DNA of 64,000 nucleotides from Pseudohalioglobus sediminis (GTDB taxonomy: Bacteria > Pseudomonadota > Gammaproteobacteria > Pseudomonadales > Halieaceae): NCBI RefSeq assembly GCF_008370495.1, contig NZ_VTUX01000003.1:186001-250000 (forward strand), written 5' to 3'. Under the pieces are notes generated by a model that had not been told where the DNA came from, ran no database searches, and was given only the letters and a program-made list of their open reading frames with translations. Numbering within the stretch: the first letter of the stretch is position 1; every line of letters begins with the position of its first letter. This document shows, piece by piece, positions 29,558 to 42,953 of this stretch. The position numbers and the translations under genes are program-made.

Positions 29558-29827
29558 ATATGACCCCCGAGAAAACAGAAAAAAGATAATTGTGCATGAA
29601 GAACAGTAGCAGAAGGGCATCAGTACCATGATGCTCTTGCATATGTTGATTGCTGATTATACCAGCGCTACTACGTTAATTTGACAGACATCTGCGGGGA
29701 AACTGCACAAAAAGTGAATTGGCCCATTCGTGGACACTGGCAATAACTACCGCTGGATCGAGCCCCGGGATCAACACATCGGGGCGCCAGGTATACCCGC
29801 TCACCGAGTTCCTGTCCCCGGCAGGAC

Positions 29828-30007
29828 GGCGCGCCTGGCACGATGACCCACAACACCCTTGCAGGCTGTTGTGACCCTGCGGGCTTCGGCGCTTCGCGCC
29901 TCGGTGCAAATTGCTAGCGCAATTTGTCGAACGGAGCACGTCTCTCGACCAAACCCACCCAACAAACAAAAAGGCCCCACCCGAGGGTGAGGCCTTTTTG
30001 TCTGTAT
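29828..30007. repeat. 180-bp tandem unit 1 (tRNA-Arg 3' stub, spacer, terminator)
   Basis: The unit opens with 17 bp identical to the 3' end of tRNA-Arg (29828-29844), continues through a spacer with inverted repeats (CACAACA/TGTTGTG; CAAATTGC/GCAATTTG) and ends with a terminator (29968-29999) and tat. Unit 2 is the same sequence, split by the insertion sequence: 30008-30041 plus 31347-31485. The 156 bp at 29869-30024 match 31347-31502 with one mismatch seen. Confidence 0.85.
29968..29999. terminator. Bidirectional terminator, copy 1
   Basis: AAAAAGGCC...GGCCTTTTT stem with an inner CACCC/GGGTG pairing and GAG loop. It is symmetric, so it works on either strand. Second copy at 31446-31477. 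Confidence 0.8.
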
Positions 30008-30041
30008 GGCGCGCCTGGCACGATGACCCACAACACCCTTG
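30008..30041. repeat. Left fragment of 180-bp tandem unit 2
   Basis: Identical to 29828-29861, including the 17-bp tRNA-Arg 3' stub. The unit is interrupted at 30041/30042 by the insertion sequence and resumes at 31347. Confidence 0.8.
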
Positions 30042-31346
30042 GGCTCTTCATCATTAACGGGGGACACCGGCATTCATTAAACTGATTTTGCGAAGATCGT
30101 TTAATGGAGAGAACACCGATGTCCCACGCAAGTATGATTATAGGCATACCTGGCCTGGAAGTAATGCGGGTCAAGAGCAAACGGCGTATTGATGTCTGGG
30201 CCAGGCCGTTCCGGCGACAGGCCAGCTGCCAGCATTGTGGTGGCGCAAAGTTGCGGATCAAGGCCACCCACAAGCGCACCGTGAAGCATACCCGGCGGGG
30301 TAATCAGGTGATGATCCTGCATCTGAAGGTGCCCAAGTATCACTGCCAGAGTTGTGGGCGCTATTTCCGCCACGCCTTTGCCGGTCTCAGGCCGCGCTAC
30401 CGATCCTCAGACACCTACCAGATGGAGGTGTACGAGGCTCACGATGGCGGCGTGACCCAGCGCAAGCTCTCACGCACCCACCAGATCAGCGGCGCCACTG
30501 TGGAGCGGTGGTATCGGGATCATCTGGGCATCAAGCACTCCGAGATGGATAGGCGGCGCTGTCCGCGGGTGCTGGGTATCGACGAGCATTTCTTTACCCG
30601 CAGGAAGGGCTATGCCACCACCTTTGTGGGCCTCAAGAACCATAAGGTGTTTGACGTAAAGCTGGGGCGCTCAGAATCGAGTTTACGCCCGTATTTAAAG
30701 GGTTTACGGGGCCGAGACAATGTCCAGGTGATGGTCATGGACCTGTCAGAAACCTACCGCGGTATCGCCCGGCAATACTTCCCCAACGCCACGATTGTGG
30801 CTGACCGGTTCCACGTCGTTCGGCTGATCAACCAACACTTCTTGAAGGTGTGGCAGCAGCACGATCCTGAGGGCCGCAAGAACAGGGGATTGATCAGCCT
30901 GATGCGCCGTCATCAATGGAATCTCAAAGATGAGCAGCATGCCAATCTGATGCACTACCTGGCCGACTACCCGGTGTTACAGCAGCTCTATGTGGCCAAG
31001 CAGAGGCTGGTACGCCTGATGCTGTTGAAGACGCTCACAGCCAAGAGAGCGAGGGCCAAACTACCCCAGTTGTTCGAATTGCTTGATCAGCTGCGAGACA
31101 GCCCTTTGCGGGCCTTGGCAAAGACGCTGACAAGATGGCTGGAACCCATCGTTGCGATGTGGCGATTCAGCAAAAGTAACGGCATCACGGAGGGCTTCCA
31201 CAACAAGATGGAAATGATCTCCAGGAGGGCCTATGGTTTCAGGAACTTTGAGAACTATCGCTTGAGAGTGCTGACCCACTGCGGGTGGGACGGTATTATC
31301 AATCGGGTACGGATGAATGCCCATCCCCCGTTAATTGGGTAGAGCC
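30042..31346 (+). mobile_element. ISL3-family insertion sequence, 1305 bp
   Basis: Imperfect terminal inverted repeats: left 30042-30077 and right 31313-31346 share GGCTCT, ATTAACGGGGGA and GCATTCAT in order. One transposase gene fills the element. The flanking 8-mers (cacccttg and ttgtgacc) are not a direct repeat; compared with unit 1, seven bases (caggctg) are missing at the insertion point. Confidence 0.87.
30104..31342 (+). CDS. tnp: ISL3-family transposase
   Basis: 412 residues (a second ATG at 30119 is possible). An N-terminal zinc-finger region has C-x2-C pairs (CQHCGG, CQSCGR) and an HTH region (LSRTHQISGATVERWY). The DDE catalytic core shows Asp in VLGIDEHFFTRRKGYATTF, Asp in TIVADRFHVVRL and Glu in GITEGFHNKMEMISRRAYGFRNFENYRLR, the ISL3 signature. 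The frame looks intact, so the element may be active. The stop lies within the right inverted repeat. Confidence 0.95.
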   Translation: MERTPMSHASMIIGIPGLEVMRVKSKRRIDVWARPFRRQASCQHCGGAKLRIKATHKRTVKHTRRGNQVMILHLKVPKYHCQSCGRYFRHAFAGLRPRYRSSDTYQMEVYEAHDGGVTQRKLSRTHQISGATVERWYRDHLGIKHSEMDRRRCPRVLGIDEHFFTRRKGYATTFVGLKNHKVFDVKLGRSESSLRPYLKGLRGRDNVQVMVMDLSETYRGIARQYFPNATIVADRFHVVRLINQHFLKVWQQHDPEGRKNRGLISLMRRHQWNLKDEQHANLMHYLADYPVLQQLYVAKQRLVRLMLLKTLTAKRARAKLPQLFELLDQLRDSPLRALAKTLTRWLEPIVAMWRFSKSNGITEGFHNKMEMISRRAYGFRNFENYRLRVLTHCGWDGIINRVRMNAHPPLIG

Positions 31347-31485
31347 TTGTGACCCTGCGGGCTTCGGCGCTTCGCGCCTCGGTGCAAATTGCTGGCGCAA
31401 TTTGTCGAACGGAGCACGTCTCTCGACCAAACCCACCCAACAAACAAAAAGGCCCCACCCGAGGGTGAGGCCTTTTTGTCTGTAT
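31347..31485. repeat. Right fragment of 180-bp tandem unit 2
   Basis: Matches 29869-30007 with one mismatch seen (ctggc for ctagc). It ends in the terminator and abuts the long tRNA-Arg 3' copy, so it is probably the original downstream region of the tRNA gene. Confidence 0.8.
31446..31477 (-). terminator. Terminator, copy 2; probable original terminator of tRNA-Arg
   Basis: Same stem as copy 1. On the minus strand it lies 8 bp beyond the end of the tRNA 3' copy at 31485, the place where the tRNA-Arg transcript would have ended before the island separated gene and terminator. Confidence 0.75.
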
Positions 31486-31530
31486 GGCGCGCCTGGCACG
31501 ATTCGAACGTGCGACCGCCTGGTTCGTAGC
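31485..31530. repeat. Left attachment site (attL): 46-bp copy of the tRNA-Arg 3' part
   Basis: Identical to 42877-42922: from the CCA end through the T arm, variable loop and 3' anticodon stem into the anticodon loop. Together with the integrases next to the intact tRNA it marks the ends of an 11.4-kb integrated element. Confidence 0.88.
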
Positions 31531-31759
31531 TCAACAAATGAAATTTAACGTATTGTTTTAAATAGCTTTTCTGGCGACGCCCGTTGCCGACCAAGCACGA
31601 CAACGCACCACTGAGCACGCTGATGTCGGAAATTTGTCGGAATTGTAAACGTTGTCGATCGAGCTATTTTCGCAGGCTCAATGCACCGTAAAAATACTGA
31701 CTTTACAAGGTCCATCCCCAGTATTAATATTTAATACATAGTTTTTCAGGTACGCGCAC
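31531..31759. other. Island left end, promoter region of the ParD gene
   Basis: 229 bp without a gene. The last 45 bp are AT-rich with repeated TATTAATATTTAATA-like sequence just before the antitoxin start, suiting a promoter and ParD operator. Confidence 0.45.
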
Positions 31760-32005
31760 ATGGCCAGAAACACCTCCGTCACCCTCGGTGATCATTTTGA
31801 AGCGTTCATCACCAGTAAGATAGAACAGGGTCGCTTTCAATCTGTCAGCGAAGCAGTCCGCGCCGGGCTGCGAAAGCTGGAGGAGGATGAAGCCAGGCTT
31901 GATATGTTGAGGACTCGACTAAGGGCGGGGGAGGACAGCCCCGTTGCTGAAAACTTTGATAGCCGGGAATTTCTGGAAAAACTCCATAAAAAGCCTCTTG
32001 GGTGA
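31760..32005 (+). CDS. parD: ParD-family type II antitoxin
   Basis: 81 residues. The N-terminal ribbon-helix-helix reads NTSVTLGDHFEAFITSKIEQGRFQSVSEAVRAGLRKLEEDEAR, typical of ParD/CopG antitoxins that bind their own operator as dimers. The C-terminal half (DSREFLEKLHKKPLG) would wrap the toxin. Its stop overlaps the GTG start of the toxin gene by 3 bp. Since the toxin is truncated, the antitoxin may serve only as a regulator or remnant. Confidence 0.88.
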   Translation: MARNTSVTLGDHFEAFITSKIEQGRFQSVSEAVRAGLRKLEEDEARLDMLRTRLRAGEDSPVAENFDSREFLEKLHKKPLG

Positions 32006-32205
32006 AGAAGCGCTATTTCATTCGCGAACTCGCTCTAAGAGATTTGGAGGAAATTTGGCTCTTTACCCTGTCGGGGTGGAGTCTAGAACAGGCTGATGCC
32101 TATACCAGTTCTATCCTTGCCCGCCTGAATTTGCTGGCCGACAACCCCAGCGTTGGCTACTATCCATTGAACAACTGGTTCGTAGCCACAATTGTGGCAA
32201 TTTAG
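32002..32205 (+). pseudogene. parE: ParE-family toxin, C-terminally truncated
   Basis: 67 residues from a GTG start overlapping the parD stop. The first 50 residues are a good ParE/RelE N-terminus (YFIRELALRDLEEIWLFTLSGWSLEQADAYTSSILARLNLLADNPSVG). The normal family length is about 95-100. The last third, with the basic core strands and the usual R-xx-xx-G-xx-xxFY motif, is missing and replaced by PLNNWFVATIVAI. The break coincides with a 14-bp match to the tRNA-Arg anticodon arm (32175-32188). Probably inactive. Confidence 0.75.
32175..32188. repeat. 14-bp copy of the tRNA-Arg anticodon arm at the parE break
   Basis: CTGGTTCGTAGCCA is identical to 42911-42924 inside the intact tRNA (anticodon stem and loop). 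It overlaps a 14-bp perfect palindrome (GCCACAATTGTGGC, 32185-32198). Probably an old or secondary attachment core. Confidence 0.65.
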
Positions 32206-32244
32206 ACCCTTGTAAATCGATCACCTGGATACGGCCCGCCCTCA

Positions 32245-32625
32245 TTACACCCCGTATCGACCCGTGTTCTCTAGTAGATACCCTACGGTTAAGCTTGAGG
32301 CCCCTCCTTTCCTTGGCACTTCTTTCAAGCCATTGTCGGTGGCGAGCTCGCTTTGAATACAGATAGGGAATCCTGCTGAGCTGCCGATGAGAATGTCACA
32401 TCAAGCCGCAACTACCCCCTACTCCCTCTTTGACTGCATCCTCCATAACAAATCTGCTCGTAAACTTTTTGGGAATTTCATAAAGACGCCGCTGTATCTT
32501 ATGCGACGAGGCACAAGGCATACACGAAGTGCTGCAGAATAGCTGTCTGTGAGCAGGGTAGCTGAAGTATTACCCTGCCCATGGGAGGAGGTGGTATTAC
32601 ATTGAAACTTTGCAATATCCGTCAT
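32245..32625 (-). pseudogene. Possible decayed ORF downstream of the P450 gene
   Basis: From an ATG at 32625, which overlaps the P450 stop (ATGA), a 68-codon frame runs to a stop at 32421. The same frame has another stop at 32403 and then stays open for 51 codons to 32245 (ends LLENTGRYGV). One frame broken by two closely spaced stops suggests a decayed gene or a non-coding element. No family recognised. Confidence 0.25.
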
Positions 32626-33857
32626 GACGCCACTTCAAGGGCCCCGACATCAACAGACATCGGTAGCTTTACCCAGCCGCTAAGTATCGGGACAGGAATT
32701 CGTTTACCATTCTCAAAATCCAGTTTCATATGAGGAAGTAGATCGATGAGCCATTCGAAAGCGACCTTCGCTTCAAGCCGTGCCAGCGCGGAGCCCATGC
32801 AAAAATGTATACCTTTCCCCAACGCTAGGTGATCTTTGTTGCGTCGATGCAGATCAAAAGTCTCTGGGGCTTCATAAGTATCAGCATCGAGATTCCCGGA
32901 GGAGAAAAGCAACCAAAGCGTATCACCCTTACTGATGTTTTTGCCTCTGAACTCAACATTTCTGGTTGCAATTCGAAAAAGGCCCATTACAGGGCCGTCA
33001 TAACGCAACATTTCTTCAACGAAATCAGAAATCAATGTCCTATCATTTCGCAAGTCCGCCAGCACATCGGGATGATTCAATAAGAACACTACCCCGTTGC
33101 TGATCAAGTTGGTCGTTGTTTCATTCCCTGCAAGCCACAGCAGTTTGCTTAAACCTAGTATTTCTTCTGTACGTAGATTCTCACCTTCCTCGGAAGCATC
33201 AAGCATGGCGCTGATAAGGGTATTTGCCTGTGGATTATGACGCGCCGCAGAGATGATTTCGCTCAAGCCTTCCGTCATCTCTTTACGTGAGCCGAGCTGC
33301 TGCTGAATGGAATACCCTTCTCCAGCACCAATGGCCAGGGAATCAGACCACATGCGCAAGCGATGACGTTCCTCCAACGGAATCCCCATCATCTGAGCAA
33401 TTACATACACCGGCAGCGGACTGGCAAAATCATCTACCAGATCCAGCGCTTCACCATTGCGAATTTTCTGGTGGAGTTCGTCCATTAGATTTGTGGCTAT
33501 TTCCACCACCGCTGGTTCCATTTCGGCGATGCGTTTTGGCGTGAAAGCCTTTGCAAACAGCGAACGAATTCTGGTGTGTTCTGGCGGATCATGCTGAATC
33601 AAGGGTAGGAAACCCATGCCGCCATTGTCATCGCGCTGTTCGCCGTCTTCTCCTGCTACGAGGCCCCCACCGGGTCCGGCTGCGGACGAGTATGTGTATG
33701 GGTCCTTGAGCATCTCGAGGATATCCTCATGCTTTGAAATAACCCAAAACCCATACTCCTGCGCATAGTAAACTGGATCGGTCTCTCGAAGATTCTTCCA
33801 AAAGGGTTGTGGCCGCGCAGCGTATTCTGCAGAGAGAAATGGAAATTCATTAGACAT
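32622..33857 (-). CDS. Cytochrome P450
   Basis: 411 residues, normal bacterial class I length, no membrane anchor. The I-helix oxygen-binding motif is LAGNETTTN (about 240), the K-helix ExxR is EEMLRYDGP (about 285) and the heme loop is LALGKGIHFCMGSALARLE (Cys ligand about 350). The heme loop has Leu where Phe is usual in FxxGxHxCxG. It would hydroxylate a small hydrophobic substrate using ferredoxin partners not encoded nearby. It is transcribed with the MarR gene, 69 bp downstream, and opposite to the efflux genes. Confidence 0.94.
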   Translation of the reverse strand: MSNEFPFLSAEYAARPQPFWKNLRETDPVYYAQEYGFWVISKHEDILEMLKDPYTYSSAAGPGGGLVAGEDGEQRDDNGGMGFLPLIQHDPPEHTRIRSLFAKAFTPKRIAEMEPAVVEIATNLMDELHQKIRNGEALDLVDDFASPLPVYVIAQMMGIPLEERHRLRMWSDSLAIGAGEGYSIQQQLGSRKEMTEGLSEIISAARHNPQANTLISAMLDASEEGENLRTEEILGLSKLLWLAGNETTTNLISNGVVFLLNHPDVLADLRNDRTLISDFVEEMLRYDGPVMGLFRIATRNVEFRGKNISKGDTLWLLFSSGNLDADTYEAPETFDLHRRNKDHLALGKGIHFCMGSALARLEAKVAFEWLIDLLPHMKLDFENGKRIPVPILSGWVKLPMSVDVGALEVAS

Positions 33858-33926
33858 GGTATATTTCTCCTATTCGGGACAACCACCCACCAAATCGGCT
33901 GGCATCTTGTCCAACTTCCAATACTC

Positions 33927-34388
33927 TCAGTTTTCCGACAGCAAATTCGCATGTACCAATTTGAGTAAACGGTAAAATTCCTTGGCCTCTTTAGCAGACA
34001 TGCCGCGCGTTGCCGCTCTGCCAATATCGCCTACCAGATCTTCAAGCGACTTCAGCATGGGGTCGATTTTATCCGTAAGGCGAACCATCTTCGCACGGCG
34101 ATCACTAGTATCCTGATGTCGCGCTATCCATCCCGCTGACTCTAGTCGGTCCACAACTTTGCCCAGTGGTGGTTTCGCCATCATCAGGGAATCGGCAATA
34201 CTAGTTTGCGTCTGCTCGCCGTTCATGTAGAGCAGGTAGAGCACCTGCCATTGTGTGCGAGTTAACCCCAAGTCCTTTACCTGCCTGTTAAAGAGCCGGG
34301 CGACCATCAAACTAATTTCGTGAATTAGCGTACTAACAGGCTGGTCTTGCCGCCTTGATTGTTGGCTTGCTATATCTTGCGTTGACAA
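33927..34388 (-). CDS. MarR-family transcriptional regulator
   Basis: 153 residues with a winged HTH: LTRTQWQVLYLLYMNGEQTQTSIADSLMMAKPPLGKVVDRLESAGWIARHQDTSDRRAKMVRLT (about 40-110), including the DxRxK-like wing (DTSDRRAKMV). It is divergent from the RND efflux genes and upstream of the P450 gene, so it probably represses both units and releases on binding a ligand that is pumped or oxidised. The 67-bp intergenic region carries AT-rich inverted repeats suited to a MarR dimer. Confidence 0.92.
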   Translation of the reverse strand: MSTQDIASQQSRRQDQPVSTLIHEISLMVARLFNRQVKDLGLTRTQWQVLYLLYMNGEQTQTSIADSLMMAKPPLGKVVDRLESAGWIARHQDTSDRRAKMVRLTDKIDPMLKSLEDLVGDIGRAATRGMSAKEAKEFYRLLKLVHANLLSEN

Positions 34389-34391
34389 TTT

Positions 34392-34413
34392 AGTTATCCT
34401 AGTTAATATAACT
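34392..34413. promoter_or_regulatory. MarR operator candidate
   Basis: AGTTAT (34392-34397) and ATAACT (34408-34413) are inverted arms around 10 bp, immediately upstream of the MarR start. Further TAGTTA-like half sites follow to 34432. The site lies in the divergent promoter region of MarR and the efflux operon. Confidence 0.5.
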
Positions 34414-34488
34414 ACAGTTAATATTTTAGTTGTAGGTATCGCGGTTTGTCAATTCATGATGCCTCTCGAACTAGTTGGTAGCGATAGT

Positions 34489-35610
34489 ATGCGTTACATC
34501 ATGCAGACCGTGGGACCCATTTTGGCCGCAGCGATACTCATGGGCTGCGATGGCGAACCCCAAAATGGCACAACCAGTACTGGGATTACTCCACAGCCCT
34601 CGTCACCCGTTGTAGTATCGATTACGAGTCCGGAAATAGCGGCATTATCTGAGCCTATTTTTGTTACCGGCACCATTCTCGCACGCCGCTCCACCAATAT
34701 TTCGCCGATGGTTGGTGGCCTCATCGAAGAAATCTATGTCAACGTTGGAAGCCGTGTTGAAGAAGGGCAGCCCTTGCTGCGTATGCGCCAGAAAGATTTC
34801 GAGATTAATGTCCTGCGTCTTTCTGAGGCTAAGCGCCTGGCAGAGGCAGAGTACAAAGACTCGGTACGCGATCTTGAAAACGCCATCGCACTCAGAGAGA
34901 AGCAAGCATTCTCTGTCGAGCAACTCGATGACAGGCGCACACAAGTTGAGGTATCGGCTGCGAAGCTCGGTATTGCAAGCGCTAATCTTGCCGAGGCGCA
35001 GAAGGAACTGGACGACTCAATAACCCGAGCACCCTACCGTGGCGTTATCACCCAGAGACATGTGGATGAAGGCGCATACGTCCCATCAATCATGCGCTCT
35101 GAGCACCCAGTCCTCCAAATCCAGGAGATTGATGTCATGGTGGCACTGGTGTTCGTGCCCGAAGTTTATTTAACTTCCATTCAGTTGGGTACGCTCGGAA
35201 GGGTTCACATACCGAGTATGAATCAAACCTATGAGTCGGAAGTGGCGCTGATCAACGATCGAATAGACCACAAAACTCGCACTATCGATGTAAGACTGGG
35301 AATACCAAATGTGGATTATGCGATCAAACCTGGGCTTTTCATTGAAGTCGAGCTGATGCCCATTTCAAGACAGGGGCTAATGTTATCACCCAACGCTACT
35401 ATGGGACTGGGAAGCAGCCGCTCTGTCCTGGTGGTTGAAGATGGCGTAGTTAGTCAACGCACAGTGCAAGTACGTGAGCTTAGTGATGGTCGGCTTGAGA
35501 TACTCCAGGGCGTAAGCTCAAATGCGATCCTTGTTGTAGGCCCCAGTATGCACAAGGTTTCTGATGGTTCACGGGTCACTATTTCAGAACATCCCTATGT
35601 GGATAGCTGA
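34489..35610 (+). CDS. RND efflux periplasmic adaptor (membrane fusion protein)
   Basis: 373 residues from the ATG at 34489; an ATG at 34456 would add an acidic leader. Lipoprotein signal with lipobox LMGC (about residue 19). Then come the lipoyl-like half (STNISPMVGGLIEEIYVNVGSRVEEGQPLLRM), a coiled-coil hairpin (LRLSEAKRLAEAEYKDSVRDLENAIALREKQ...), the returning lipoyl strand (SITRAPYRGVITQRHVDEGAYV) and beta-barrel/membrane-proximal domains. It links the RND pump to an outer-membrane channel; no TolC homologue is in the island. Its 3' end overlaps the permease start. Confidence 0.92.
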   Translation: MRYIMQTVGPILAAAILMGCDGEPQNGTTSTGITPQPSSPVVVSITSPEIAALSEPIFVTGTILARRSTNISPMVGGLIEEIYVNVGSRVEEGQPLLRMRQKDFEINVLRLSEAKRLAEAEYKDSVRDLENAIALREKQAFSVEQLDDRRTQVEVSAAKLGIASANLAEAQKELDDSITRAPYRGVITQRHVDEGAYVPSIMRSEHPVLQIQEIDVMVALVFVPEVYLTSIQLGTLGRVHIPSMNQTYESEVALINDRIDHKTRTIDVRLGIPNVDYAIKPGLFIEVELMPISRQGLMLSPNATMGLGSSRSVLVVEDGVVSQRTVQVRELSDGRLEILQGVSSNAILVVGPSMHKVSDGSRVTISEHPYVDS

Positions 35611-38600
35611 CCTCTGCATTCGCCGGCCAGTGCTGGCGATCATGATGACCGCTGCGCTCATGATGCTGGGCGTGGTCTCCATGGGTCGAATAAGCATCGA
35701 TCTGTTCCCGAGCGTTGAAGTGCCCATTGTAACGGTTGAAACAATACTCGAAGGAGCCTCTCCCAGCACGGTAGAGACAGAAGTTACCGAGAGGCTTGAA
35801 GAAGAGCTAATCGCTATATCTGGCGTCGATACAATGCGCTCGATTAGCGGTGACGGTTTTTCACAGATAATCCTTGAATTCGATATGGAGGAAAATCCCA
35901 ACCTGAAGGCCCAGGAGATACGGGACAAAATCAGTCAAACTCTGCCGCTTCTGCCTGACACAGTTAGTCAGCCTGTCGTCTCCATACTTGATCCGGATTC
36001 TGAACCCATTGTCTCGGTGATTGTATCCGGCCCCTGGCCAGTGGGTGAACTCACAGCCTTCGCCAAAGATGTCGTCAAAGAGCGTTTGCAGAGAGTACCT
36101 GGCGTTGGCAGCGTGATTCTTGTCGGGGGCCGCGAGCGGGAAGTACGCATCTGGTTGAAAGCCCCACAAATGCGGGGTTACGGCGTAATTGCGGCCGATG
36201 TAATCAGCGCTATCCAACGTGAGCATGCTGACATCCCTGGCGGCCGCCTGGATTACCACAGCGGGTCCACGGAACTGACCATCAAAACCATGGGCGAAGT
36301 AACCAGCTTAAAAGAGTTGGGTGAAATCATTATTTCTCGCGATGATAAGGCGATGGTGCGCTTGATAGATGTTGCCGAAGTTGAGGATGGTCTGGAGGAT
36401 GAACGCAGCTACGCGGAGCTAGATGGTAGAACAGGAGTAAGCCTCGAAATTCGCAAACAATCTGGAACCAATACCACCAGTATTGCCAAAGCAGTTAAGG
36501 CAGCGCTGACCAAACTTCAGACAGAAACACCAGCTGAAATCAACATTGTCACGGTAAGGGACAGTTCGCGATTTATCGGGTCCGCAGTGCGAGACGTGTC
36601 AAACGATATTTTGCTAGGCATCCTCCTGGTTGTCATTGTCACACTTTGCTTTTTACTCAGCGTACGCGCCACGCTAATTGTTGCAACCGCTATTCCAACG
36701 GCAATCATCGCTACTTTTTTCGCTTTCTACCTACTCGATTTTTCTATCAATATGGTATCGCTGATTGCCATATCACTGTGTGTCGGCCTGCTCGTAGACG
36801 ATGCCATAGTTGTGCTGGAATCTATACACCGCGAAGTTGAAGCTGGGCTCGACCTCAATGAAGCTGCTTCAACGGGCACGCGAAAAGTTGCCACTGCCGT
36901 CATCGCATCCACCCTTTGTGTGATGGCGGTGTTCTTGCCGATTTCCTTTACCACAGGTCTGGTTGGTGTGTTTTTCTATCAATACGGTGTCACCATTGCT
37001 GTGGCAGTAGCACTATCTCTGTTTGTTTCCGTTACCCTTACGCCTATGTTGAGCTCTCGTCTGCTCAAAAAAAGTTCCGGCCATAGAGGAATGTTTGCGC
37101 TACTGGATAAGGGCTATGTACTTCTGGAAACAACCTACGTTAAGGGCGTTCGCTTCGCACTTCGCGCTCGCTGGCTTGTTCTGCTGTTGGCCGCTGCCAC
37201 TGTCGGTATGGGTGTTTATAATGCGGGTCAGGTTCCCCTCTCATTTACGTCCGCAACTGATAGAAGCGAGTTTCTCGCCAAAGTCGAGCTTCCTCTGGGA
37301 ACCGGTCTTACCCAGGCCAAGCGTGTTGCCACTCAAGTGAGTAAAACTGTCAGTGACCTGGAACATATTGAATTGGTGTTCACTGTTATTGGCTCCGGCG
37401 CTCAGGCCAAGGCAAACGAACTATCATTCTATTTTGGTCTGTCGCCGAAACAACAAAGGAGCAGTCATCAGTATGAAGTGATGGATGACGTCCGCACAGC
37501 GCTCGCTTTGGCCATACCCGATGCCAAGCACATCTCTTTGACAGATGTGCCCTGGATATCCGGAGGAGGATTCTTTGGTGCCGACATGGAGATGGCTTTA
37601 AGCGGCGATGATTTAGAACAACTTCGAACATACGCGGATACTATCACGAGCCAGATGGAAGAATCTGGCCTCTTCAGGGATATCAAGTCCAGCTATGAGC
37701 CAGGCAAGCCTGAATTGCAGGTTACGATAAACCGGCGCAGGGCCGCTGATTTGGGCATTTCGGTTCGAGATATCGCCGCTACTGTTGGAGCCACGATGGG
37801 TGGTGTAGATGTTACAAGTTACGAAGAGTTCGGTAATCGCTATGACGTGCGCCTGAGATATGCAGAAACGTACCGCGACGAGATCGGAAAGTTTGACCTC
37901 ATTCAATTACGCGCGGCAGACAACAGCTTAATAGATTTCCGTAACGTCGCAGAGGTAAGCGTAACCAGTGGCCCGGCACAAATCGATCACTACAATCGGG
38001 CTCGAAAGATCGGTATTTCTGCAAACGCTCCCGCTGGGATCGCGACAGGCGAGCTGATGAAAAAAATGGATGAGATTATTAGTGATCTCGATATGGCTAC
38101 AGGATACGAGAGTTCATATCTAGGCACTTCAGAGCAAATCAATGATATTGTCGAGGCAATATTTTTTGCACTAACAATGTCGATGCTCAGTCTATACATG
38201 ATTCTGGCTAGTCAATTCAACAGCTATACTCAACCAGTAGTGATCATGCTTACCGCTCCGCTGTCTTTTGTGGGCGCATTCAGCTTGCTCGCATGGACTA
38301 ACTCCGAGCTTTCAGTCTTGACACAAATCGGTCTGGTCGCGCTGATGGGTCTGGTTATGAAAAACGGCATTCTTCTGGTGGACTATGCCAATCAGGCCAT
38401 AGAGCAAGGCCACAGCGCAGCGGAAGCTATGATCGAAGCGGCTCATTTACGCTTACGCCCAGTACTGATGACTGCGTTCTCTACCATATTCGGTATGATC
38501 CCTATAGCGCTGGCCACGTCTGATGGCGCTGAGTTACGCACTTCAATGGGTATACTCGTAATAGGCGGACTAATTTCCTCAACCGTGCTTACCTTATTTG

Positions 38601-38674
38601 TTGTTCCAGTGGTTTACACATTACTCGCCGACGCCGAAAGTCAGCTTGCCCGTCTATTAAAATCGGAAATCTGA
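35597..38674 (+). CDS. RND (AcrB/HAE1-like) efflux permease
   Basis: 1025 residues from the ATG at 35597, which begins the family-typical IADLCIRRPVLAIMMTAALMMLG; a start at 35564 is possible but less typical. Twelve membrane helices in two halves, with large periplasmic loops after TM1 and TM7. The proton-relay region in TM4 reads SLCVGLLVDDAIVVLESI (Asp-Asp). GLVMKNGILLVDYANQAI and RLRPVLMTAFSTIFGMIPIAL are HAE1 signatures. It is translationally coupled to the adaptor (14-bp overlap) and likely exports hydrophobic compounds. Confidence 0.95.
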   Translation: MWIADLCIRRPVLAIMMTAALMMLGVVSMGRISIDLFPSVEVPIVTVETILEGASPSTVETEVTERLEEELIAISGVDTMRSISGDGFSQIILEFDMEENPNLKAQEIRDKISQTLPLLPDTVSQPVVSILDPDSEPIVSVIVSGPWPVGELTAFAKDVVKERLQRVPGVGSVILVGGREREVRIWLKAPQMRGYGVIAADVISAIQREHADIPGGRLDYHSGSTELTIKTMGEVTSLKELGEIIISRDDKAMVRLIDVAEVEDGLEDERSYAELDGRTGVSLEIRKQSGTNTTSIAKAVKAALTKLQTETPAEINIVTVRDSSRFIGSAVRDVSNDILLGILLVVIVTLCFLLSVRATLIVATAIPTAIIATFFAFYLLDFSINMVSLIAISLCVGLLVDDAIVVLESIHREVEAGLDLNEAASTGTRKVATAVIASTLCVMAVFLPISFTTGLVGVFFYQYGVTIAVAVALSLFVSVTLTPMLSSRLLKKSSGHRGMFALLDKGYVLLETTYVKGVRFALRARWLVLLLAAATVGMGVYNAGQVPLSFTSATDRSEFLAKVELPLGTGLTQAKRVATQVSKTVSDLEHIELVFTVIGSGAQAKANELSFYFGLSPKQQRSSHQYEVMDDVRTALALAIPDAKHISLTDVPWISGGGFFGADMEMALSGDDLEQLRTYADTITSQMEESGLFRDIKSSYEPGKPELQVTINRRRAADLGISVRDIAATVGATMGGVDVTSYEEFGNRYDVRLRYAETYRDEIGKFDLIQLRAADNSLIDFRNVAEVSVTSGPAQIDHYNRARKIGISANAPAGIATGELMKKMDEIISDLDMATGYESSYLGTSEQINDIVEAIFFALTMSMLSLYMILASQFNSYTQPVVIMLTAPLSFVGAFSLLAWTNSELSVLTQIGLVALMGLVMKNGILLVDYANQAIEQGHSAAEAMIEAAHLRLRPVLMTAFSTIFGMIPIALATSDGAELRTSMGILVIGGLISSTVLTLFVVPVVYTLLADAESQLARLLKSEI

Positions 38675-38679
38675 ACAAG

Positions 38680-39147
38680 ATGGATGCACTCCAACTGGAA
38701 AAAGTTTACGAGTTGTTCAGCGCCGGGATCGGTGCTCACAGTGATATGTCACTGAAATTTGTTTCTACCGAGGAAAACCGAGTCGTATTGGAAATGCCTT
38801 TCCAGGAAAAGCATGCAACAGCGCACGAAAATGGTTCGTTGCACCCTGGCGCTCTGGCAGCCGCACTGGACAGTGCCTGCGGTTTCGTAGTCCTCCAAAG
38901 CCTCGCGGTGCCACAGGCCATTGCGACCATCAACCTGCGAATCGACCACATACATTCCGCCCCCGTAGGCACTGATGTTCGAATCCAGGCGGAGTGCTAC
39001 CAGCAGATTAACGGGTTTGCCTATGTCAGTGCATTCGCCAGCAGCCTGGACGGAAGAAAGATGTTGTGTAACGCGCAAGGTATTTTCAAAATTGGCAGCC
39101 CAGGTCCTGCCCTGGATCGAAGCTTGCTCTATCGACGAGGTGATTAA
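38680..39147 (+). CDS. PaaI-like hotdog-fold thioesterase
   Basis: 155 residues, 5 bp after the permease. The hotdog signature reads HENGSLHPGALAAALDSACGFVVLQSL, where the usual HGG is replaced by HPG, followed by INLRIDHIHSAP. PaaI-type enzymes hydrolyse acyl- or aryl-CoA thioesters. It is in the same transcript as the efflux genes and next to a second thioesterase. Confidence 0.85.
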   Translation: MDALQLEKVYELFSAGIGAHSDMSLKFVSTEENRVVLEMPFQEKHATAHENGSLHPGALAAALDSACGFVVLQSLAVPQAIATINLRIDHIHSAPVGTDVRIQAECYQQINGFAYVSAFASSLDGRKMLCNAQGIFKIGSPGPALDRSLLYRRGD

Positions 39148-39152
39148 TCAAG

Positions 39153-39554
39153 ATGGACAAACATCTACTCCAGTTTCTCGACGAGACGCCCTATGCGAAA
39201 AATTACGGGACCGAGCTTGTCAGATGCGAACCAGATGTCGAATGCCTGACTCCTTGGGCAGAGCATTTTACTGGTAACCCATTGTTGCAAGCGTGGCACG
39301 GAGGAGTAGTTGTAGGCGTTCTCGAGCTTACCGGTGCGTTGCAAACTTTAAAGGTATCAGCCGACGAAGTGTGCCCACTCCTATCAGCCAACATCAATTT
39401 TCTACGTCCCACCAAGGGTGATCTAGCCGTGCATACACGCGCTTACCTTGTTCGAAGTGGGAGGCAGATTCTGAATATCGATGTCATCGCCTGGCAAATC
39501 TCGCTGCAAGAGCCCACTGCTGCGGCAACACTGACTTTTGCAAGACGTAGTTAG
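39153..39554 (+). CDS. PaaI-like hotdog-fold thioesterase (second copy)
   Basis: 133 residues, 5 bp after the first thioesterase. The motif HGGVVVGVLELTGAL (about 48-62) carries the canonical HGG, followed by SANINFLRPTKGDL. It is diverged from its neighbour, so the two may form a heteromer or act on different acyl-CoAs. Last gene of the efflux/thioesterase unit. Confidence 0.87.
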   Translation: MDKHLLQFLDETPYAKNYGTELVRCEPDVECLTPWAEHFTGNPLLQAWHGGVVVGVLELTGALQTLKVSADEVCPLLSANINFLRPTKGDLAVHTRAYLVRSGRQILNIDVIAWQISLQEPTAAATLTFARRS

Positions 39555-40604
39555 TCACCATCCTTCTGTTCGATTTAACGCTAAATTCACGAAAAACCAC
39601 CCCGTACCGCCTGCGTTCCGGCGCGAGCTCATTAGCCGCTCGCCCGAGAGAATTCTCGGTAAGAGTCTGGAAGAACACTCTTCCCCCAAGGCAATGGTGG
39701 ATTTTTGCGGGTACAAATGTGCAGTTTTCGTCCGGCGTTGATAGGCTTTTCACAGCGGAGCATATCGTTTTCCGCATCAAAACCCCACGTCACTAAGGCG
39801 CGAAGCGAGTAGTGACGTGGGCAGCGCGCACATTGCGGCAATCTTGGCAACACCGAGGCTTAACGTCTTTTCAGGGGTGGTTACAGTGGAACCACCCCCT
39901 CAAAGGTGGATTGGGTCGTGTAGGCACAGTCAAATATGGCCAAAATTGCATTGCAGAGAGCTTTCAGGGCGTTTGATGGCAGCAAGTTTTCAGCTGCCGG
40001 GCAGAAACCACTCCCGATTCAGGTGAAGTTCTCTGTGACACGCGTATTCTGTGTTCCTATAATCGGCCCCAACACTGAATTTTGTCGCTGCCACTGCGCT
40101 TAAAGTGGCAAGGAAGACCCCACCTTGCGAAAGCGAACGGGGTAGGTGGATTCAGGTAGTTTTGGAATCTGCTGAACGCGTCACTCAGGACCCTTCTTGA
40201 CGCAACGGTCAGCGATGACCGGGTCCCTCTTCGAACTATCGCAGTGCCGCTTCGTCTGGGTACCGCACCTTCAAATCCCTCCCGCCTGGTACGGGGATCG
40301 GTTCCATAAGCGCTGTGGATGGCCGGGCATATATGCCGGCCTGAAAGACAGTTTCTTCAACCACGCAAACGCACTGGCGGTCAGTGCGCTCTGCTCAACT
40401 TAAAAAGGAGAAATCCACCACCAGCCTTTGGCTGGATGACCGTTGGTTTGCACGGGCCAGTTTTCTTGCGAAAACACACCGTGCTGTCTATGGCCAGACA
40501 CATTCAGGTCAACCGGGATTGGTGTCCCGTGATCGTACCGCTCGTCGGACCTGCGCAGCATTGTTGCCAGGTGATCAGAAACACTCACCGATGGAAACAA
40601 CACT
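39555..40604. other. 1-kb hairpin-rich non-coding stretch of the island
   Basis: No convincing gene. Perfect or near-perfect hairpins: 39644-39659 (6-bp stem), 39661-39682 (6 bp), 39784-39821 (12 bp), 39874-39898 (9 bp), 40089-40110 (7 bp), 40321-40341 (21-bp near-palindrome GGCCGGGCATATATGCCGGCC) and 40421-40435 (6 bp, 3-nt loop). It lies between cargo and integrases and may hold a small RNA, recombination or transfer signals, or remnants. Confidence 0.6.
39784..39821. repeat. 12-bp perfect inverted repeat
   Basis: CCCACGTCACTA (39784-39795) and TAGTGACGTGGG (39810-39821) with a 14-nt loop that can itself pair CGC/GCG around GAA. It is the most stable hairpin of the non-coding stretch. No T-tract, so not a simple terminator. 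Confidence 0.7.
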
Positions 40605-41471
40605 ATGCGAGACCTGAACTACCAACTGAAACTCTTGTGCAAACACAGCCATGAAGGCAGCTTCGAAACCCGCGTAGGCCGTGAGCGCCAGTTGAGCGCA
40701 ATCGCCAACCAGTTGCACGAGCTGGGCTTCCGGCAATTGAAGGCCTCCTCCCTCAAACAAAAGCATGTCCAGGCCCTGGTGGACGAGTGGCTGAAACAGA
40801 ACCTTTCACCCGGCACCATCAAGAACCGGATGAGCTGTTTACGCTGGTGGGCCGAGAAGGTTAACAAGCGGGCCGTGGTTGCCAGCTCCAACGACTTTTA
40901 TGGCATACCGGACCGGCAGTTCGTATCCGGCACCAGCAAGGCCAAGGACCTGAAAAGGGACCAACTCGCCCTGGTGAAAGATGAATATGTGAGGATGAGC
41001 CTGCGCCTGCAACAGGCCTTCGGGCTTCGACGGGAGGAAGCCCTGAAGATCCAGCCCCGCTGGGCAGACCGGGGTGATCACCTGCACCTCAAGGCCAGTT
41101 GGACCAAGGGCGGACGGGAACGCACCGTCCCCATCCGCACCCTGGAACAACGCGCCCTGCTGGAACAGGCCAAGCGGCTGGCCGGTTTCGGCTCGCTGAT
41201 CCCCCGGGGCCGGCAATACATCGAGCAGCTCAGGATCTACGAACGCCACACCGCCAACGCCGGCTTATCCAAAATGCACGGCCTGCGCCATGCCTATGCC
41301 CAGCAGCGGTACCGGGAACTCACAGGTTGGCCCTGCCCCCATGCGGGCGGGCCCGCCAAAGAGCAATTAACCGGGTCACAGCGTCAGGTCGACCAGCAGG
41401 CCCGCCTGACCATCAGTGCTGAAATAGGCCATGTCAGAGCCCAGATAACTGCTGTGTACATAGGCAGATAG
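40605..41471 (+). CDS. Tyrosine-type site-specific recombinase (phage integrase with N-terminal SAM-like domain)
   Basis: 288 residues. The N-terminal core-binding domain (residues 1-95) includes SAIANQLHELGFRQLKASSLKQKHVQALVDEW. The catalytic domain has Arg in FGLRREEALKI, H-x2-R in MHGLRHAYAQQRY and the C-terminal AEIGHVRAQITAVYIGR with His, Arg and the Tyr nucleophile. It belongs to the group with paired Phage_int_SAM/Integrase_1-type domains common on genomic islands. Its own attachment site is unknown; it may act with, or be a relic beside, the second integrase. Confidence 0.87.
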   Translation: MRDLNYQLKLLCKHSHEGSFETRVGRERQLSAIANQLHELGFRQLKASSLKQKHVQALVDEWLKQNLSPGTIKNRMSCLRWWAEKVNKRAVVASSNDFYGIPDRQFVSGTSKAKDLKRDQLALVKDEYVRMSLRLQQAFGLRREEALKIQPRWADRGDHLHLKASWTKGGRERTVPIRTLEQRALLEQAKRLAGFGSLIPRGRQYIEQLRIYERHTANAGLSKMHGLRHAYAQQRYRELTGWPCPHAGGPAKEQLTGSQRQVDQQARLTISAEIGHVRAQITAVYIGR

Positions 41472-41474
41472 GGC

Positions 41475-41834
41475 ATGCAGATCCAACCCCGCCTGATCCG
41501 ACTCCGCGATGCCCCGGCCTACCTCGGGATCAACAAGAATACTTTTAATCGCGTGGTGCGCCCTGCCCTGTCTGAGGTTTCCCTGGGACAACAAACCATT
41601 CTCTTCGACAGACTTGAAATCGACGCCTGGGCGGAGGACTATATCCAACGCAACGGGCGTCGTCCTTTAGGCTCAATTCTGGAGGACGATTTATGTCAAA
41701 GCGCAACAAAATGCCGGGGCTCCGCCTCAAAAACGGGATCTGGCATATCGAAAAACGCTCGCAGTACGCCCCCGGCGGCTGGCTCCGCGAAAGCACAGGA
41801 GTATCTGGCCGCACTGAGGCAGAGCAAAAACTGA
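41475..41834 (+). CDS. Excisionase/AlpA-like DNA-binding protein
   Basis: 119 residues, 3 bp after the first recombinase. Residues 5-65 (RLIRLRDAPAYLGINKNTFNRVVRPALSEVSLG...FDRLEIDAWAEDYIQRN) form an AlpA/Xis-like winged HTH of the kind found directly before integrases. It is likely a recombination directionality factor. Its last 47 codons overlap the start of the next integrase in another frame by 142 bp; this tail is Ser/Ala/Lys-rich and probably disordered. Confidence 0.75.
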   Translation: MQIQPRLIRLRDAPAYLGINKNTFNRVVRPALSEVSLGQQTILFDRLEIDAWAEDYIQRNGRRPLGSILEDDLCQSATKCRGSASKTGSGISKNARSTPPAAGSAKAQEYLAALRQSKN

Positions 41835-42856
41835 TCCGTCGACTGGCGGAGATTCAAGAGGAGGCAAAGCAACAAGCCGCAGCGGTTTATACCTTCGAGG
41901 CAGCGGCACTGCGATACCTCGAAGATATTGCACAGTCGTCATCGGCAGAAACGATAGCGATACATCTGGACCAGTTGTTCGTGTATATCGGCGCACTGCC
42001 CCTGGAGCAGGTCCACGACGGCACTTTAAAGCCATTCGTGGATGAGCGGCTCCGTCTGGGGAAGGCCCCGAAATCCATTAACAATGCGATTGGTACAGCC
42101 AGTGCAGTTCTCAATCGCGCGGCGCGGGTATGGCGAAATGAGCAAGGGCTGCCGTGGCTAAAACAGGCACCGCCCAAACTCAGTCGGCTATCGCTCAAGG
42201 GGTGCCAGAAAAGACCGTACCCCTTGTCGTGGGAAGAACAGGACAGGCTTTTTTCAAGGCTCCCCCGCCACCTGGCGGATGCCGCGATGTTTGCGGTCAA
42301 TACGGGATGCCGGGAACAAGAGGTCTGCCAGCTGCGCTGGGCATGGGAGGTAAAACTGGATGATCTATCCACTTTCGCCTTTGTCCTGCCCGAGTCGATC
42401 ACCAAGACCAGTACCGAGCGGGTGGTGGTGCTCAACACGGTCGCGAAGGCAGTAGTCGATTCACGGCGGGGGATCCACGAGGACTTCGTGTTTACCTATC
42501 GGGGCAACCCGGTCGGGAAGTTACGGACCAGCGCGTGGATCAGGGCCTGGACGAAGGCCGGGTTACCGACGGACAGCACCATACTCAAAGGCGTTCACAA
42601 TTTGCGCCATACGTTCGGCCGAAGGCTGCGAGGCGCGGCGGTTCCACTGGAAACACGCAAGGCGCTGCTGGGGCATGCCAGTGGTGATATCACCACCCAC
42701 TACTCGGCAGCCGAACTCGGCGAACTGCTGGATGCCGCGGAGAAGGTGACCGATCGTGGGCGCGCGCAATCGCCCACCCTGACAGTGATAAAGCGGCAGA
42801 AGGAGGAAAGTGTCGGAAAACTGCCGGAAATGCGCGGGAAGGTTAGTGGCTGCTAA
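41693..42856 (+). CDS. int: Tyrosine recombinase/integrase of the tRNA-Arg island
   Basis: 387 residues. An Arm-binding N-terminus (residues 1-55), a core-binding domain (60-150) and a catalytic domain follow: Arg in NTGCREQEVCQLRW, H-x2-R in VHNLRHTFGRRL, His in ALLGHASGDITTHY with the Tyr nucleophile. It ends 20 bp before the tRNA-Arg 3' end (attR), the usual arrangement for an integrase acting on the adjacent tRNA site. Confidence 0.93.
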   Translation: MSKRNKMPGLRLKNGIWHIEKRSQYAPGGWLRESTGVSGRTEAEQKLIRRLAEIQEEAKQQAAAVYTFEAAALRYLEDIAQSSSAETIAIHLDQLFVYIGALPLEQVHDGTLKPFVDERLRLGKAPKSINNAIGTASAVLNRAARVWRNEQGLPWLKQAPPKLSRLSLKGCQKRPYPLSWEEQDRLFSRLPRHLADAAMFAVNTGCREQEVCQLRWAWEVKLDDLSTFAFVLPESITKTSTERVVVLNTVAKAVVDSRRGIHEDFVFTYRGNPVGKLRTSAWIRAWTKAGLPTDSTILKGVHNLRHTFGRRLRGAAVPLETRKALLGHASGDITTHYSAAELGELLDAAEKVTDRGRAQSPTLTVIKRQKEESVGKLPEMRGKVSGC

Positions 42857-42876
42857 GCTGCAGACCCTTACGGAAT

Positions 42877-42953
42877 TGGCGCGCCTGGCACGATTCGAAC
42901 GTGCGACCGCCTGGTTCGTAGCCAGGTACTCTATCCAGCTGAGCTACAGGCGC
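42877..42953 (-). tRNA. tRNA-Arg (anticodon ACG)
   Basis: 77 nt including encoded CCA. Acceptor stem GCGCCTG/CAGGCGC, discriminator G, D arm with AGCTCAGCTGGATAGAGT, anticodon stem CCTGG/CCAGG with loop CTACGAA (ACG), T arm GCACG-TTCGAAT-CGTGC. Its 3' 46 nt (42877-42922) are duplicated at 31485-31530, so the functional 3' end now comes from the island side or is shared with it. Confidence 0.97.

Follow-up and report, generated by a model that had tools for sequence, protein, structure and literature searches.

A tandem array behind a tRNA-Arg gene

The window, that is, the whole stretch of 64,000 nt from Pseudohalioglobus sediminis that was analysed, contains repeated copies of the end of a tRNA gene. 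The 17-mer GGCGCGCCTGGCACGAT, which is the 3′ end of tRNA-Arg(ACG), occurs in exact copies at 29828, 30008, 31486 and 42878, with no copy elsewhere in the window when two mismatches are allowed (0.03 expected). Two of these copies open the units of a tandem array: unit 1 (29828–30007, 180 bp) and unit 2 (30008–30041 plus 31347–31485), which is split by an insertion sequence (IS). The units have 173 bp in common, with one A/G as the sole difference.

The array reads along the - strand, 3′ of the tRNA, in the order tRNA 3′ end, terminator, hairpin core and stub. In unit 1, a two-way terminator hairpin, an inverted repeat to which no strand is assigned (29962–30005), is followed on the - strand by a degenerate inverted copy of the 3′ third of the tRNA (29935–29961); by the hairpin core (29841–29934), which comprises GTTCGAC and hairpins H1 to H4, shows covariation and scores 95.2 bits with the covariance model R1 (see below); and by the terminal tRNA-Arg stub (29828–29844), of 17 bp and without the final A of CCA. 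When unit 1 is folded as RNA, the predicted structure pairs the stub with the inverted copy (z = -2.84). The tRNA-proximal 139 bp of unit 2 (31347–31485, - strand), which contain the one difference from unit 1, score 68.7 bits with R1 on 31311–31412 and include the corresponding two-way terminator (ACAAACAAAAAGG...CCTTTTTGTCTG, 31440–31483, an inverted repeat without strand); the distal part (30008–30041, - strand) carries the stub (30008–30024). The promoter/terminator scan gave no score to the terminator hairpin of unit 2, because its T run pairs with the A run.

The sequence-only reading of this DNA had the units start with the last 17 bp of tRNA-Arg and end in a terminator, as is borne out by the exact copies and the inverted repeats. 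It also counted the stub four times; the four exact copies do exist, but those at 31486 and 42878 belong to 45-bp repeats. The concern that the units are an assembly duplication is countered by the presence of the single-nucleotide difference and of the IS in one unit only, and by equivalent arrays in relatives that sit within long or single-contig assemblies.

An island and an insertion sequence at the array

The 45-bp repeats delimit an island of 11.4 kb (31486–42922) within tRNA-Arg(ACG), with a tyrosine integrase adjoining the tRNA. The att repeat, which extends from the tRNA-Arg 3′ end through the anticodon loop, is present as a tRNA 3′ fragment at 31486–31530 (- strand), identical to 42878–42922, and the intact tRNA-Arg(ACG), the host of the array, was restored where the island has its proximal end (42877–42953, - strand; ARAGORN; Rfam tRNA 64.7 bits). 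The tRNA end at 31486–31530 is the one that the array originally followed, and the order along the - strand before the island is intact tRNA-Arg, unit 2 and unit 1. The island carries genes for a ParD-type antitoxin, a cytochrome P450, an HlyD/AcrB-type efflux pair, a thioesterase and two integrases, and its end sequence recurs in two relatives (loci L008 and L009).

With direct repeats of the tRNA 3′ end flanking DNA, as the att repeats of integrative islands do, and with a real island in the same tRNA, the units could be taken for footprints of repeated island integration and excision at tRNA-Arg, as was first proposed. We find this scarcely credible. The att core of the resident integrase spans 45 bp and the stubs 17 bp and, unlike island att repeats, the repeat of the units (17–19 bp in the family) starts at the T-loop, with no integrase in the unit. 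Moreover, a unit is not random leftover DNA: it holds a four-hairpin core that is conserved and covaries over many tRNAs and genera, arrays exist without islands, and elements with their own stubs stand behind many other tRNAs, most of them islandless.

The IS that interrupts unit 2 within hairpin H4 (30042–31346, + strand, 1,305 bp) belongs to the ISL3 family, its transposase ORF (30104–31342) matching Pfam DDE_Tnp_ISL3 (1.2e-58). No target-site duplication is visible at 30042–31346, and 7 bp of the unit (CAGGCTG, present in unit 1) are missing at the site.

A family of elements linked to many tRNA genes

The 163-bp unit interior was used as a query against 118 relatives, of which 35 contained matches, nearly all directly 3′ of tRNA genes of various isotypes and on the same strand. 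The relatives were Halieaceae (Seongchinamella, Parahaliea, Halioglobus) and Microbulbifer, and the arrays had a tandem spacing of ca. 176–188 bp. The linkage is not to tRNA-Arg alone, since the host tRNAs of the family include Arg, Val, Ser, Lys, Asp, Tyr, Glu, Gln, Thr and Pro. A plasmid search with the unit gave short tRNA/terminator matches only, and attempts to locate an orthologous tRNA-Arg site free of the element, starting from the adjacent 346-aa gene, gave only diverged matches (at most 40 % identity) and no usable site. In the literature, we did not find this family described beyond brief mentions.

The covariance model R1 (93 positions, 30 pairs), built from 14 copies, detected seven copies at six loci in the genome of the window, copies in 37 of 61 family members, and matches in 24 of 276 gammaproteobacteria (E ≤ 1e-3), with a patchy distribution within the genus. 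Two of the class-wide matches (L073 and L085) lack a neighbouring tRNA and were discounted as chance matches, probably in coding sequence. Altogether, 108 copies lie at most 320 bp behind a same-strand tRNA. In a tally of the 178 copies of at least 70 nt, an intact tRNA was found within 700 bp upstream of 116; the others had a tRNA 3′-end fragment upstream (20), a stub only (7), a contig edge (4) or neither tRNA nor stub (31), the last including some opposite-strand echoes of palindromic copies and some fusions of tRNA and core. Two elements in the genome of the window have no intact tRNA nearby, one behind a tRNA-Ser 3′ fragment (L062, G000:C17:298939) and one ending in a tRNA-Lys stub plus terminator (L058, G000:C20:198924); they look as though islands had parted them from their host tRNAs. 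Comparison reveals that the family is widespread and follows tRNAs of at least ten kinds, and such elements account for truncated tRNA ends that are open to misreading as integration scars.

The hairpin core is maintained by compensatory changes

Judging from the aligned copies, the four predicted hairpins of the core are kept by compensatory change. Changes on both sides were found at 30 of 30 core pairs among 65 distinct copies, with 365 double-change cells as compared to 91 after shuffling and at most 70 when partners were slid; in the 14-copy seed the values were 39 and 9 (shuffled). These counts are supportive and not exact probabilities, because the 65 copies share ancestry and were aligned by fitting to the model. 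G-U pairs make up ca. 1.8 % of the core stems, compared with 6.3 % in tRNA stems. In H3 and H4, G-U exceeds A-C (52 to 15), and in the outer stem the figures are 35 and 15, a comparison that depends too strongly on base composition to carry weight.

These data bear on the simplest account, in which the array is a functionless tandem duplication of tRNA-downstream DNA that amounts to a series of spare terminators. Each unit in the window does have a terminator, and in E. coli the copy number of comparable elements varies freely, down to zero (see below). Nevertheless, the compensatory changes at all core pairs, together with a stub and an inverted copy that match the host tRNA, indicate selection or an active process, making this account quite improbable.

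Anatomy and fit to the host tRNA

Along the tRNA strand, the elements consist of tRNA 3′ end, terminator, inverted tRNA copy, GTTCGAC, H1 to H4 and direct stub. At the level of sequence, a layout is established in which the element follows the tRNA on the same strand and comprises an inverted 3′ third, GTTCGA, four hairpins and a direct tRNA 3′ end. The GTTCGA between inverted copy and hairpins is T-loop-like. The stub starts at the T-loop and, over the 108 copies, its longest match to the 3′ end of its own tRNA averages 11.3 nt, against 5.0 nt for other isotypes; its own tRNA is strictly the best match in 75 of the 108, and the last tRNA base is reached in 31. The inverted copy covers the T-arm and the 3′ strand of the acceptor of the host tRNA, scoring 12.4 with its own tRNA as compared to 6.9 with shuffled sequences, 8.2 with other isotypes and 7.9 in the direct orientation, and its own tRNA is strictly best in 45 of 85 cases. 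Ser and Tyr elements show it clearly; the one in the window is degenerate. Each copy is in this way fitted to its host by direct and inverted copies of the tRNA 3′ end.

The terminator is a long A-run/T-run hairpin able to work both ways, which in the bacterial family of the window usually lies between tRNA and element: it precedes 76 of 86 first copies and none of the five Tyr/Gln copies tested. The initial view of the locus as an array of terminators is accordingly correct in that each unit has one in the family of the window, but the terminator is incidental to the element, being absent from those five copies.

Relationship with the RtT elements of E. coli

RtT has hitherto been seen chiefly as a peculiarity of the tyrT locus in E. 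coli, with a putative role in the stringent response. Rfam (RF00391) records four RtT copies in tyrT/tyrV of E. coli K-12, where the order is inverted GGGGAAGGAT, GAGAA, GGTTCGAC, hairpins and a 19-nt tRNA end. According to the RefSeq note, a small RNA is processed from a transcript that E. coli RtT shares with the tRNA, and the rttR RNA is annotated to terminate exactly at the stub CCA. A paper on Actinobacillus (PMC4986893) also reports RtT as a processed RNA in the neighbourhood of tRNA operons, notes it near Asn and Lys tRNA genes and repeats the link to the stringent response.

The elements described here resemble E. coli rtT, which consists of repeats of ca. 178 bp arranged in tandem downstream of a tRNA. 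Each repeat closes with the tRNA 3′ end; the repeats also have an inverted tRNA-end copy, GAGAA...GGTTCGAC and four hairpins, and their number varies among strains. In the window, likewise, the units stand directly behind a same-strand tRNA gene, end in a copy of the 3′ end of the host tRNA, and have an outer stem of stub and upstream inverted copy, degenerate but paired in the predicted fold, with the hairpins between. Unlike E. coli rtT, the family of the window is found with many isotypes, tRNA-Arg among them; a two-way terminator precedes the element, and no protamine-like ORF is claimed here. The cores of the window are also too diverged for the RtT model: they fall short of the Rfam cut-off of at least 45 bits, RF00391 giving no match in 29780–31560 even at E ≤ 10, and R1 scores E. 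coli rtT weakly (13.8 bits). Rfam searches of the window and of the loci, run at E ≤ 10 as well as at the gathering threshold, returned weak matches to terminator-leader families only (Thr_leader, 28.5 bits), judged to be chance matches due to the A/T-paired terminator.

Since RF00391 misses the window copies and R1 is weak on rtT, the link runs through intermediates. The genome of the window itself contains a RF00391 match of 66.4 bits (L186), above the Rfam cut-off, behind tRNA-Tyr, with a 19-nt stub. Across the class, the tRNAs that RF00391 matches follow are Tyr, Ser and Gln; enlarging the sample added Lys tRNA, as well as one family that belongs to the phylum but not to the class. One set of elements is scored independently by R1 and RF00391 (L065, 46.2 and 55.4 bits; also L067/L189, L071/L191, L074, L078 and L084). 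The units of the window are therefore of RtT type by way of intermediates, and not a member of the curated RtT family. The feature is genuine and broader than first thought. It is best seen as a form of the tRNA-tailored, RtT-type tandem repeats in which a terminator stands in front, a variant that escapes detection by Rfam. In L065 (2213–2360), a group II intron domain lies ca. 600 bp behind the RtT element at tRNA-Tyr.

Arrays probably change size by recombination between tRNA ends

In 40 sampled E. coli genomes, the region matching tyrT had between zero and five annotated RtT copies, five being the number in strain ATCC 43886. Strain Z1323PEC0010 retains both tRNA-Tyr genes and has no RtT, and each of its tRNA-Tyr 3′ ends directly joins the sequence that in K-12 follows the array-end stub. 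Such an exact loss, with the tRNA left whole, would be expected if tRNA end and stub had recombined. This strongly supports recombination across the direct tRNA-3′-end repeats as the means by which arrays gain and lose copies while the tRNA stays intact, and the window array, with its 180-bp spacing and 99 % identity, fits this process. The suggestion of slippage between stubs, made from the window alone, is backed by the copy numbers in E. coli and by this one exact loss.

A putative RNA mimic or, less probably, a mobile hairpin module

We consider it probable that the units are RtT-type elements which act at the RNA level as mimics of the tRNA 3′ end and whose copy number is driven by recombination; the RtT-type identity taken by itself is more secure than this statement as a whole. 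The element would act as an elongated, CCA-ended RNA, its inverted copy pairing with its own stub, and its 3′ end would be trimmed like that of a tRNA at the stub CCA, by analogy with E. coli rtT RNA. The fixed orientation behind tRNAs, the processed RNA of E. coli, the pairing of stub and inverted copy, and the excess of G-U over A-C in H3 and H4 are in favour of this reading; the scarcity of G-U in the core stems speaks against it, being unusual for a purely RNA-level constraint. The terminator before 76 of the 86 copies also argues against routine expression from the tRNA promoter, and the window version would be made only upon read-through of the terminator by RNA polymerase. The breadth of the family makes the function of the element testable in many tRNAs and species.

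That same scarcity of G-U is favourable to a DNA-level explanation: the core would be a mobile hairpin module that, moving in the form of single-stranded DNA, enters a tRNA copy at its T-loop, behind TTCGA; the stub would be the remainder of the interrupted copy, and arrays would arise by later recombination. Cores fused to tRNA 5′ parts at TTCGA^ were indeed found in three genomes: in L148 (270–1060), a chimeric 218-bp unit made up of promoter, the 5′ part of tRNA-Ser and a core is present three times in tandem, with an intact tRNA-Ser downstream; L040 has a core fused to tRNA-Arg; and in L044 (2200–2700) a tRNA-Ser(GGA) copy holds two hairpin modules, one inserted behind the GGTCGA of its D-loop and the other behind the TTCGA of its T-loop. 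These fusions could equally stem from recombination on the common GTTCGA. Cores are more similar within a genome at different tRNAs than among other genera at the same tRNA (0.77 vs. 0.64), as expected from a mobile module, although gene conversion could also yield this pattern; the patchy distribution within the genus points the same way. Yet a vertical signal remains, 25 of 90 nearest neighbours from another genus being at the same tRNA (11 expected), G-U still exceeds A-C in H3 and H4, and mobility leaves the inverted tRNA copy and the fixed orientation unexplained. Clustered hairpins, stable triloops and a fixed short sequence (TTCGA) before the insert recall IS200/IS605-type palindrome-associated or REP-like elements; what sets the present elements apart is their tie to tRNA genes, with a stub that fits the isotype and an inverted copy of the tRNA. 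On balance, this explanation seems to us rather doubtful. A broader version, which we hold to be unlikely, would have a gammaproteobacterial mobile hairpin module enter the T-loop of tRNA 3′-end copies and become tailored thereby, RtT being one branch, domesticated or expressed, and the many terminator-fronted copies another, at the DNA level, that moves from one tRNA gene to another inside a genome. As a separate observation, L031 (1541–1740) and L088 (1400–1700) each contain cores arranged head to tail in one element, with a period of ca. 75 bp and no stubs between them.
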